35,344 nucleotides of DNA from an uncultured Lachnospiraceae bacterium (GTDB taxonomy: Bacteria; Bacillota; Clostridia; Lachnospirales; Lachnospiraceae): assembly GCA_902800325.1 (NCBI GenBank), contig CADCDW010000036.1, forward strand, positions 1 through 35,344, given 5' to 3'. Below the pieces are notes generated by a model that saw nothing but the letters and a program-made list of their open reading frames with translations, made no database searches and was not told the DNA's origin. Shown piece by piece: positions 10,804 through 33,814 of this stretch (its first letter is position 1; each line of letters opens with the position of its first letter). The translations under genes and the position numbers were made by a program.

Positions 10804-11448
10804 CTAAAGCTTCGAATATCCAAAGCTGTTTACAATTGCAGTTAGAGGATGTTTGGCTTTGCACATAGGACAGTCGACAGCCGGATAGGTAAGATAATTA
10901 GGTATATCGTCTGTAGTAAATATAGTATTGATATGCTGACCATGTATCCGGTTTGCAGCAGAGAAGATAGCCGATACACCTGCTATTTTACCACCGTAAT
11001 ATTCGATACACTCAAGAGCTGAGTTTATGGTTTTACCTGTTGTGGCTGTCGCAAGAAGAACAAGTATATTCTTTCCTTTGATAAACGGAAGAAAATTCTC
11101 CCTGAACATAAGCTGTCCGCTTGAGGTCTGTTCCGGTGTGAGTATATATACAGTGTTATGCATATTGGCAGACATTATACCTGCACTGGTAAGCTCATCG
11201 GCAAGATACGCACCTATTATATCTGTTCCGTCAAGACATACGATTGCATCAATTATGGTTGTGGTAACGTATTCCTGAACAAGAGCCTTTGCCGCAGCTT
11301 TAGCTTCGTTTCTTCTCGTTTTTAATGTGGTCATATCAATATAATAATTTATATGAGATGAAGATGTAGCAAAATGCCCCGGAGTAATATTTAATGCTAT
11401 AAGATTATTGAACTTTGAATAAATTTTAAATTTATTTGGATTTTCCAT
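10804..11448 (-). CDS. Type I phosphoribosyltransferase, orotate-PRTase-like
   Basis: A 214-residue Rossmann-like phosphoribosyltransferase. Visible elements are SHINYYIDMTTLKTRRNEAK near residues 31-50 (nucleobase hood), AIVCLDGTDIIGAYLADEL near 68-86, NILVLLATATTGKTINSAL near 126-144, and a C-terminal CPMCKAKHP segment followed by NSFGYSKL. The PRPP loop normally reads hydrophobic-(E/D)-D-hydrophobic-x-TTG. Here it is LLATATTGKT, so the acidic pair is missing. The family resemblance is to PyrE-type enzymes, but the substrate is uncertain and catalysis may be altered. ATG 11448 has AGGAGGT at 11460-11454, and a good promoter lies upstream. It is the first gene of a two-gene minus-strand unit. 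Confidence 0.7.
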   Translation of the reverse strand: MENPNKFKIYSKFNNLIALNITPGHFATSSSHINYYIDMTTLKTRRNEAKAAAKALVQEYVTTTIIDAIVCLDGTDIIGAYLADELTSAGIMSANMHNTVYILTPEQTSSGQLMFRENFLPFIKGKNILVLLATATTGKTINSALECIEYYGGKIAGVSAIFSAANRIHGQHINTIFTTDDIPNYLTYPAVDCPMCKAKHPLTAIVNSFGYSKL

Positions 11449-11632: not shown

Positions 11633-11776
11633 CTAGTACACCGAATAATAAGTATCTGGTACAATCACGAAGAGAAATTGTCTCAGATACAAGGCGGAAG
11701 AAGGAGGCGATGCGGTGGCATCGTCGACTGAATTTATCAAGCGGTTGTGCCGGTTATTTATTTTTCGGTGTACTAG
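11633..11776 (+). ncRNA. 144-nt palindromic element, candidate structured RNA or miniature mobile repeat
   Basis: The ends are perfect 13-nt inverted repeats, CTAGTACACCGAA (11633-11645) and TTCGGTGTACTAG (11764-11776). Pairing extends inward to 34 positions per arm (11633-11666 with 11743-11776): 28 Watson-Crick, four G·U and two U·U as plus-strand RNA. The loop holds a second hairpin, GGCGATGC-ggtg-GCATCGTC (11705-11724). Part of the 5' arm, GTATCTG...ACAAT, can instead pair with ATTGT...CAGATAC (11677-11690), so two folds compete. A terminator follows at 11812. A weak promoter candidate lies upstream (TTGTGG 11563-11568, TTTAAG 11586-11591). The overlapping reading frame at 11605-11904 shows no protein character. 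It could equally be a dispersed MITE-like repeat. Confidence 0.55.
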
Positions 11777-11811: not shown

Positions 11812-11842
11812 AAAATAAGAGCTGATAGCAGCTCTTATTTTT
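11812..11842 (+). terminator. Strong intrinsic terminator downstream of the 144-nt element
   Basis: AAAATAAGAGCTG (11812-11824), loop ATAG, CAGCTCTTATTTT (11829-11841): a perfect 13-bp stem ending in a T-run. No protein gene precedes it on this strand; the gene upstream is divergent. It therefore implies a short untranslated transcript or insulation. Confidence 0.8.
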
Positions 11843-12000: not shown

Positions 12001-14310
12001 ATGAGCAAAACAACTGTGAATTCCGGTATTTCAGAAATTGAAATTGCTAAACGACTGGAAGCCTATCATCTGAAGGGCTTTGACCGTATGCAGCTTGAGG
12101 AGATTGAGCTGGGTCTGAAAAGCGGCGTAGATGTAGATATTTATGCAGATAAAAAGTATATGTTTCTTCAGATGACTGAGATAAGAAAAGGACTTGAACA
12201 GGGTATAGATATAGCTCCATACATGGATGAAAAATATGACTGGTTTCAGATGAGGGAAATCAGAAGAGGCATAAAGAGTGGTATCGATGTATCCATATAT
12301 CTTGATGAGAGTATGGATTATCTTGTTATGCGGGAAATCAGACTCGGTCTTGAGTCAGGCATTAATCTATTACCATATTACGAAAGAAAAATCCCAAAGG
12401 CTGTTTTAACGGAAATCAGAAAGGCTTATTCAGATGGACTTAATATAGATTTATATGTTGATGACGAATATGAAGAAGATCAATTAGAACAGATAAGGAT
12501 AGGATTAAAAAATAATGTAGATATTACCTGTTATATGGATCATTCTTTTTCAGGTGGTCAGATGTATGAAATAAGACGCGGACTTGAAGAAAAACTTGAT
12601 ATTTCCATATATGCAAAAAATATATATAACTGGATGCAGATGCGCGAGATAAGACTGGGACTAAAGGCCGGTGTGGATGTTTCTAAATATGAAGATGTTT
12701 TATATACACCGGAGCAGATGCGTGAGATAAGACTTGGACTTGAAGAAGGAATTGATGTATCAGACTATATTTCGTTAATGTGGAGTGCAACTGATATGGC
12801 CAACCACAGAGCCAAGATTAAGGCATTTGGTAAGGTAGAGTCTGACTTGTTTAATCCGGAAGCTGAGATTATAAAATATGATGACAATGAGTTTAAAGAT
12901 GCTGATGCACCGGATGACGGCATTATCTGGGATACTGAAAACCAAAGGGTTATCATAGAGGTAAACCGTGATGCCATGACGGCATATATCATTTTACCAA
13001 AGCTAAAAGAAACGGACGAGGGTTTTACTGAAAAAGAAATATCTACGGCTATTAAACTGGGTGGTGTAAGACAGGGTATAAAAAAAGAAATTATACAGGA
13101 AATATTGAATGGTAATATAGGGTTTGGTGAAAGAACTCTTATAGCAGAAGGTAAGCTCCCGGTTGACGGAGAAGATGGATATTTTGAATACTTTTTTAAT
13201 AGAAATATAGATAAGAAACCTGAATTAAATGAGGACGGTTCGGTTAATTATGCCAACGTTACTTTGTTTGAACAGGTTGAAGAAGGTCAAAAAATAGCAG
13301 TTTATCATCCCGCATCAAGAGGTGTTTACGGCTATGATGTAACAGGAAAGCTTATACATCCAAAGAATGGTCAAAATCTTCCAAGACTTAGCGGGAAAAA
13401 TATATCAGTTTTGGATGATGAAGTTACATATGTTGCAGCTGTAAAGGGGTGTATAGAGGAAACAAACGGAATTATTACCATCAATACTGTTTATGTTGTC
13501 AATGGTGATGTGACTTTATCAACAGGCAATATCAATTTTGACGGAGACGTAGAGATAAGAGGAGACGTCAGAGCCAGATCTTATATAGAAGCAACGGGAA
13601 ATATTACTGTAAATGGAAGTGTAGAGGCTGCATTTTTGAAAGCCGGAAAGGATGTACTTGTTAAACAGGGGGTTCTTGGTAAGGGCCTTGGTATAATAGA
13701 AGCAGGTAATGATGTATTTGGAAAGTTTTTCGAAAATGTCAAGATATTTGCAGAACATGATGTAAGAAGCAATTATCTATATAACTGCAAATGTACCGCT
13801 ATGAATAAGGTTGTTATATCCGGAAAGCGAGGTGCGATAGTTGGCGGTCTTACTTCAGCTATCTATGGAGTTGAAGCTGCAGAGCTTGGCAATAAGATGG
13901 GTATAAGAACCGAATTTGAAATAGGAGCCAATCAATATTTTCTTAAAAAATTAAGAGACTGGGATTTAAAAGCAAAAGATCTTTCCGTAAAGGTTACAAT
14001 ATTTAAGGAAGAGATAAAGAAACTTCAGGTTAAAGTAAAGATGGAACTTTTAAAGGATACACCTTTATATCAAAATGTTCAGACTGCTATGATGCAGCTT
14101 ATGAATGAGATAGAGGAAATAAAGAAAGAAAGAGATGCATTTACAGGTGAGCTTGCTAAAAATAGTGCCGGTATTGGTGTAAGAGTTTCGGGGAAGGCTT
14201 ATTCGGGCTGCCTTATAAATATTAATAATGCCAAATTCCTTCTTGATAAGGATATTAACAGAGTATGGTTCAGAGAGAAGGATCAGGTTATAGTTCAGCT
14301 ATTAAGCTAA
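12001..14310 (+). CDS. FapA/DUF342-family protein with nine N-terminal 26-residue repeats
   Basis: A 769-residue cytosolic protein. Residues 31-264 are nine repeats with an exact 26-residue period; each carries a QMxEIRxGLxxGIDVSxY-like core and ends in Asp/Tyr-rich residues. After a linker, residues ~285-720 form the DUF342 (FapA, flagellar assembly protein A-like) region. It has a beta-strand ladder of GDV/GNI steps, for example VNGDVTLSTGNINFDGDVEIRGDV, and a long coiled coil near 635-700 (KDLSVKVTIFKEEIKKLQVK). The C-terminus is a short beta segment ending DQVIVQLLS. No catalytic residues are known for the family, which has been tied to flagella, polysaccharide or regulation. It opens a long operon, directly before an HD-GYP protein. 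Confidence 0.8.
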   Translation: MSKTTVNSGISEIEIAKRLEAYHLKGFDRMQLEEIELGLKSGVDVDIYADKKYMFLQMTEIRKGLEQGIDIAPYMDEKYDWFQMREIRRGIKSGIDVSIYLDESMDYLVMREIRLGLESGINLLPYYERKIPKAVLTEIRKAYSDGLNIDLYVDDEYEEDQLEQIRIGLKNNVDITCYMDHSFSGGQMYEIRRGLEEKLDISIYAKNIYNWMQMREIRLGLKAGVDVSKYEDVLYTPEQMREIRLGLEEGIDVSDYISLMWSATDMANHRAKIKAFGKVESDLFNPEAEIIKYDDNEFKDADAPDDGIIWDTENQRVIIEVNRDAMTAYIILPKLKETDEGFTEKEISTAIKLGGVRQGIKKEIIQEILNGNIGFGERTLIAEGKLPVDGEDGYFEYFFNRNIDKKPELNEDGSVNYANVTLFEQVEEGQKIAVYHPASRGVYGYDVTGKLIHPKNGQNLPRLSGKNISVLDDEVTYVAAVKGCIEETNGIITINTVYVVNGDVTLSTGNINFDGDVEIRGDVRARSYIEATGNITVNGSVEAAFLKAGKDVLVKQGVLGKGLGIIEAGNDVFGKFFENVKIFAEHDVRSNYLYNCKCTAMNKVVISGKRGAIVGGLTSAIYGVEAAELGNKMGIRTEFEIGANQYFLKKLRDWDLKAKDLSVKVTIFKEEIKKLQVKVKMELLKDTPLYQNVQTAMMQLMNEIEEIKKERDAFTGELAKNSAGIGVRVSGKAYSGCLININNAKFLLDKDINRVWFREKDQVIVQLLS

Positions 14311-33588: not shown

Positions 33589-33814
33589 GCCTCTCCGGTT
33601 GAATGTGTGTACATATAGAGGGAATTTAAAACGTGCCATCAATTTGCTAAATCAATAAGCGCGAATTCTTTGTATTCGCACGAAATCGAGAACTCGCTAC
33701 GCTCAAACAGCTCGATTTCTGGGCGAATCCATGCGAATTCTTGCTTTTGATTTTACGCAAATCGGGCAAAGGTTTTAAATTCCCTCTATATGTACTTAAT
33801 TCAACCGGAGAGGC
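33589..33814. repeat. 226-bp near-palindromic element after glgA
   Basis: The outer arms are GCCTCTCCGGTTGAAT (33589-33604) with its exact complement at 33799-33814. A further 24-bp perfect stretch follows, GTACATATAGAGGGAATTT plus AAAAC (33609-33632 with 33772-33795). Pairing continues imperfectly inward (TTTGC, AATCAA, GAATTC, ATTCGC, GAAATCGAG) to a ~20-nt loop at 33691-33710. No frame of note is inside. No clear target-site duplication flanks it. It could be a MITE-type repeat or a long terminator-like 3' structure for glgA. Confidence 0.75.

Follow-up and report, generated by a model that had tools for sequence, protein, structure and literature searches.

A probable MITE-like family of one-strand hairpin elements with a conserved internal loop and CTAG-type target duplications

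The window analysed here, a stretch of 35,344 nucleotides, is the whole of contig C36 of a 2.77-Mb draft genome of an uncultured Lachnospiraceae bacterium. Between two divergent genes, one on the minus strand (10804–11448; no Pfam match) and one on the plus strand (12001–14310; FapA match), it holds a long palindrome at 11633–11776, and the question is what this palindrome is. The initial annotation had read it as a bistable plus-strand RNA, possibly a small RNA or switch, or else a dispersed MITE-like repeat put to use. Its description of the palindrome was accurate: on recount the 34-nt arms (11633–11666 and 11743–11776) pair with 28 Watson-Crick, four G·U and two U·U positions, and the internal hairpin of GGCGATGC and GCATCGTC is present in the computed fold. 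As plus-strand RNA the 144-nt element folds at -64.3 kcal/mol (z -9.86; none of 200 shuffles as good), and the minus strand folds at -49.1 kcal/mol (z -7.98). The FapA-domain protein encoded at 12001–14310 carries tandem repeats of about 26 residues (78-nt spacing) in its N-terminal part. The palindrome comprises the following parts:

11633–11636, no strand: left CTAG of the 4-bp target-site duplication, from the flanks of the family
11637–11690, plus strand: 5' arm, pairing with the 3' arm, with arm covariation in the family alignments
11691–11705, plus strand: conserved purine-rich 5' side of the internal loop, AAGGCGGAAGAAGGA, from conservation across the family
11706–11725, plus strand: tip stem-loop GGCGATGC-GGTG-GCATCGTC, from the fold; it covaries in distant members (helix 7)
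11726–11731, plus strand: GACTGA remnant of the 3' side of the internal loop, from alignment to the copies on contigs C86 and C26
11732–11772, plus strand: 3' arm, from the fold and the arm pairing
11773–11776, no strand: right CTAG of the 4-bp target-site duplication, from the flanks of the family

Alignment to the C86 and C26 copies displays a stretch of 21 nt, including the GACAACGC motif, that both possess and the window copy lacks; it would directly follow GACTGA at 11726–11731. With 21 nt of its core lost, the window copy is probably a dead copy. A mechanically called ORF of 99 amino acids, at most a putative gene, crosses it. The perfect terminator that had been placed 36 nt downstream is in part confirmed: a hairpin does begin there (11812–11841), but 14 of its 15 mirrored positions pair, and it is not among the sites of the terminator consensus scan. 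Within the element that scan gave one terminator-like site, on the minus strand at 11723–11708 (0.2 expected).

Blastn in the own genome displays copies or parts of copies on contigs C26, C86, C65, C119, C32, C2, C92 and C35, and a covariance model finds nine places; C86 and C119 terminate inside a copy. Because the element is repeated in its own genome, a chance origin of the palindrome is excluded, and the reading as a dispersed MITE-like repeat is borne out by a multi-copy family with target-site duplications. The BLASTN comparison proposed at the outset thus yielded further copies in the own genome, but none in 60 other genomes of the order (36 of the same genus and 24 others) when the window copy was the query. 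Absence by blastn is weak evidence, since model R1, a covariance model built from 40 elements, matched eight places in G044, one of the 24 blastn-negative order genomes. The core pattern with three mismatches matched in 7 of the 36 other same-genus genomes. In the order, R1 matched in 20 of 295 genomes from six families at E 0.001, and in the phylum in 19 of 398 genomes from nine families at E 1e-5; both counts include the own genome and family, and the search filters lose weak matches.

The 20-nt core occurs in at least 116 stretches of genome contigs, where about two would be expected by chance (an estimate). By eye, 114 of the 116 listed stretches are the element, the exceptions being L179 and L170, the latter without arms; a loose automated test passed 115 of the 116 listed sites. 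Among 80 titles listed, one names another phylum (Acidobacteria, L170) and a few give no taxon, the rest being Lachnospiraceae or other Clostridia. Clustering of 79 elements at 85% identity gave 21 clusters. Among 72,556 plasmid records, blastn with a Lachnospiraceae copy gave matches in 24, all of them Streptomyces, and a second query matched 14, also Streptomyces; the window copy itself matched none. R1 recognised all of the first five Streptomyces loci, two of them in the inner part only, and six of nine in a later set (L323–L325 were missed). Phage records gave no match for three queries, and among viral contigs none had the element end pattern, while one had a core match without element ends. 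Rfam 15, which the initial annotation had suggested scanning, returned no match at gathering score in the window and six related loci, and the four sub-threshold matches, in four loci, all lie outside the element. Topic searches of the literature returned no title or abstract opening that describes the element, searches with element sequence strings returned nothing relevant, and the part of PMC3765725 that was searched held no matching passage.

The elements are about 145–170 bp long, most copies measuring about 158 bp without the duplication and those with nested inserts up to about 217 bp. The 5' half has near-constant length, and the sequence of its arm is free between subfamilies. Among 76 filtered elements (75 distinct sites), 50 are flanked by CTAG on both sides and five by non-palindromic direct repeats (CTAC twice, at different sites, GTAG, CTAA and CCAG); in 13 the two sides are unequal and in eight the boundary was misplaced by the script. 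The direct repeats CTAC, GTAG, CTAA and CCAG are not explained by an inverted-repeat end. It is thus the flanks, rather than empty sites, that show a 4-bp duplication at CTAG-like sites; a search of the genus for the empty site of the window copy gave partial flank matches only. More distant members have, by eye, TTAG or TATA flanks, and the Streptomyces ends in L319 and L323 read CTAGGGGGTGTC.../...GACACCCCCTAG. By crude ORF calling 66 of 78 elements lie outside long ORFs. In 13 of the 78 (a raw count, 12 distinct sites) the duplication forms the last four bases of the adjoining ORF with the TAG stop kept, and two annotated Streptomyces genes also end in this way.

Tandem elements with a common CTAG occur, as do small nested inserts in the core; such inserts, of about 25–55 nt, sit at several core positions in L130, L152, L224, L210, L348, L349, L322 and L325. 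L120 and L134 consist of halves from different subfamilies, by core recombination or assembly error. In L323 (Streptomyces canus) the tip domain is swapped for another stem, with AAGGCGGAG and CGACAACGCGGC retained.

The internal loop is nearly constant on both sides, with purine-rich AAGGCGGAGGA as its 5' strand and GAYYGACGACAACGC as its 3' strand. As the 20-nt core is invariant in alignment A1 by construction, conservation was judged on other columns and on model and blastn finds; the 5' side of the loop is kept in A1 outside the 20-nt pattern, in distant genomes and in Streptomyces. Tandem G·A pairs with Watson-Crick pairs in between may form in the loop. The tip stem occurs in several types (GGCGATGC, GGCGTAGC, ACATACC, AGCATAG) and covaries (helix 7). 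In A1, both-side changes are seen in 39 of 50 predicted pairs. In alignment A3 (48 rows, fitted to the model) 91.3% of cells pair, against 34–45% in slid controls; 783 cells show a both-side change, against 243 in shuffled alignments; and the score of 0.804 falls to 0.214 when shuffled and to no more than 0.158 when slid. At least one both-side change is found in 49 of the 50 pairs, a weak count, since shuffles give 43.6. One row of A3 (L109, plus) is on the wrong strand, and its removal leaves both 49/50 and 91.3% unchanged. The covariance model proposed for this element thus found relatives, and the alignments show that the arms and the tip stem keep their pairing while their sequence varies.

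Mismatches in the arms differ between the strands. Counted on an alignment treating both strands alike, 19 subfamily representatives hold 71 G·T against 24 A·C and 44 G·A against eight C·T; individually, G·T is in excess in 17, in deficit in one and tied in one. The trimmed arms of 24 later sequences hold 77 G·T against 29 A·C, and untrimmed arms, which run into the unpaired core, 83 against 51 (39 to 34 in the inner zone); four Streptomyces sequences hold 19 against one. Over all 43 sequences, a set without the wrong-strand row and four short-arm rows, the window copy among these, G·T outnumbers A·C by 146 to 55 (more in 35, fewer in four, tied in four). The excess has p 1e-10, which becomes 8e-7 once composition is corrected for; as the sequences are related, both values overstate the significance. 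By zone, the 43 sequences hold 72 to 23 in the inner arm, 36 to 12 in the outer 17 bp and 38 to 20 between; in the first set the outer-arm bias was weak (16 to 7, p 0.09). Of the two strands, the one carrying the core gives the better fold in 20 of 21 representatives and, in rows from distant genomes, in 32 of 35 (two sites twice; exceptions L296, L304 and L308) and 28 of 28. This mismatch bias suggests that the fold of one strand is probably selected, as RNA or single-stranded DNA. The wobble asymmetry noted in the window arms is hence real and family-wide, and of the claim that it reflects selection on an RNA, the selection on one strand probably holds, with RNA and single-stranded DNA fitting alike. 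Strand-symmetric changes combined with target-site duplications had been named as evidence against that claim; the duplications are present, but the changes are compensatory and strand-asymmetric.

Does the fold serve the host? Folded alone, the 5' half does form the alternative hairpin on which the bistable reading was built (-14.5 kcal/mol), but in the full-length RNA its pair probability is about 2e-5. At equilibrium a bistable switch is rejected on this value, and bistability of the element would hold at most during transcription. Local folding excess in the 5' halves is mild (mean z -0.98 versus 0.0 in the 3' halves; 20 sequences, window included) and may suggest a possible folding intermediate; in A1 a partial alternative register is present, with weak covariation. 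Both flanking genes lie within 600 bp in 55 of 78 elements, with orientations of same strand (15), both opposite (14), convergent (18) and divergent (8); no orientation preference relative to the genes is seen among these 55, nor any bias relative to GC skew (46 to 51 of 98), which argues against a host switch. It is very improbable that the window locus holds a cis-acting RNA useful to the host, be it a switch, a terminator or an RNase III site. Such an RNA would fit a stable hairpin that lies between divergent genes and is followed, 36 nt further on, by a second one, as well as the one minus-strand terminator-like site inside the element; against it, the core of the window copy is deleted, the alternative fold is reached at only about 2e-5, relatives lack orientation bias at gene ends, and blastn matches are found in none of the 36 other same-genus genomes. 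The first three of these points also count against the small RNA or switch originally proposed here.

We consider it probable that the palindrome belongs to a non-autonomous MITE-like transposon with a CTAG-type 4-bp duplication, moved in trans and selected for the hairpin fold of one strand. An element of about 145–170 bp would insert at CTAG-like sites with a 4-bp duplication, moved by an enzyme acting in trans; one strand would fold as a single long hairpin with a purine-rich conserved internal loop near its tip. Since orientation is unbiased after insertion, selection on this fold would most likely act during mobilisation rather than afterwards. That the duplication is fixed at 4 bp suggests a transposase making staggered cuts, and the one-strand fold suggests a step that involves RNA or single-stranded DNA. 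Several points weigh against this explanation: no partner was found in the genomes examined, no empty site turned up for the window copy, the outer-arm bias was weak in the first set, the untrimmed later sequences gave only 83 to 51, and the inverted-repeat symmetry of a DNA transposon could alone yield the arm covariation.

The last point leads to an ordinary MITE, in which only double-stranded terminal repeats matter and the strand bias comes from mutation bias or composition. Short fixed target duplications are typical of DDE transposases, which fits, and so does the weak outer-arm bias of the first set; we nonetheless regard this as unlikely, given that the bias outlasts composition correction and recurs in the later sequences and the four Streptomyces copies, that terminal repeats need no internal loop conserved across phyla, and that the tip stem, too, covaries. 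Selection on one strand would equally suit a single-stranded DNA hairpin as the moving form, as in IS200/IS605 or integron cassettes, and DNA hairpins also tolerate G·T and tandem G·A. Lagging-strand-dependent insertion, however, gives an orientation bias relative to GC skew, which the 46 to 51 split lacks, and the constant length of the 4-bp duplication suggests staggered cutting of both strands, leaving this a doubtful candidate. Helices rich in G·U and a near-constant internal loop between varying helices would be expected if the element's own RNA were needed for movement, by binding an enzyme at the conserved loop or by guiding itself; here no partner enzyme was found and any promoter in the element would be putative, and we are sceptical of this version as well. 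More broadly, we tentatively put forward, as a possibility, a transposon superfamily with fold-recognised ends, in which the element's own RNA or single strand, via the loop that Actinomycetota share with the phylum of the gut bacteria, directs or catalyses a step of movement; any self-complementary arms would then suffice.

The search for an enzyme that would move the preferred MITE-like transposon covered 11 genomes by end pattern, and among the matches listed no transposase with matching ends was found. The matches (50 in five genomes, and those listed in six more) are mostly pairs about 145 apart; the remainder are chance matches, lone ends and some derivatives of lesser or greater length. 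A pair of ends 3.5 kb apart (G066, contig C44) was rejected as an autonomous element, its second end being that of a normal copy, and the intervening ORFs of at least 150 amino acids look, by eye, like housekeeping genes. The own genome gave no DDE_5 match for an IS701-type partner. Arm queries against Streptomyces plasmid records returned copies and other matches, with no annotated transposase among the matches listed. In L185 an IS630-like element (DDE_3; 419–1802) lies in CTAG near a family copy; it was dismissed as partner because its ends differ from the family's (only one was found in the locus scan). The repeated flank TTTTCAAACACGCTC was likewise dismissed as a partner's end, as it is part of a different hairpin, about 165 bp long and without R1 match.

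Among known systems, the family is like RUP as a MITE presumably moved in trans, and like IS630 in its CTAG preference. IS630 prefers CTAG and duplicates TA; five family copies have 4-bp direct repeats instead, and an IS630-type MITE with TA-only duplication is contradicted by CTAC, GTAG, CTAA and CCAG, a rejection that does not extend to the TATA-flanked members. As far as the consulted part of PMC2229807 defines bacterial MITEs, the family has their size (under 200 bp in most copies) without coding a protein, terminal inverted repeats, many copies and a target-site duplication (50 CTAG pairs and five direct repeats among 76). The Correia/NEMIS, ERIC, RUP, RPE and YPAL elements described there share with it a length below 200 bp, (nearly) no coding, terminal inverted repeats, target duplications, a mainly intergenic position and transcripts predicted as one long stem-loop; they are described from single genera or related groups, and the mode of movement of bacterial MITEs is given as mostly unproven (PMC2229807). 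Unlike these, the present family has its core in two phyla, arms free in sequence, a usual CTAG target that is duplicated over 4 bp, and, close to its tip, an internal loop that is conserved. It differs from the bacterial MITEs in the consulted part of that source by its spread over two phyla, the freedom of its arms and the constancy of its loop, and is best read as a MITE superfamily that is new, unusually widespread and structured in its core.

Palindromic, hairpin-forming repeats are also found in REP/BIME with RAYT, but a REP spans 20–40 bp and carries GTAG or CGTC as a tag on one of its ends; the family, whose elements are about 160 bp long, have inverted ends and lie in a direct target duplication, differs in size and ends and was not assigned to them (PMC3733652, as far as consulted). 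In the main text of that source, as far as it was searched, ctag, streptomyces, lachnospir and clostrid do not occur.

A family that occurs in two phyla, has covarying helices and keeps a loop of some 30 nt nearly constant, and for which the search gave no matching transposase, would point to a mobilisation step on a folded single strand. The covariance model may also serve to annotate intergenic hairpins left unmarked in the genomes of gut bacteria and Streptomyces.

Other hairpins accompany the family. The window has a second long hairpin at 33609–33795 (39-nt arms, 82% complementary; fold z -11.96), which is also dispersed, with a 78% match on C86 (L071, 4409–4538) that adjoins a copy of the first element; it is probably another MITE family. 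In L126, L177, L187, L200 and L215 a companion hairpin, some 165 bp long and with ends that read AGAGCRTGTTTGAAA or nearly so, adjoins a family copy, joined at the copy's CTAG or a variant of it. If ends recognised by their fold were indeed the rule, these companions sharing CTAG may be carried by the same machinery as the family. Their sequence is unrelated to the family and without R1 match, and they fold much better on one strand (L187, -114 versus -82 kcal/mol).
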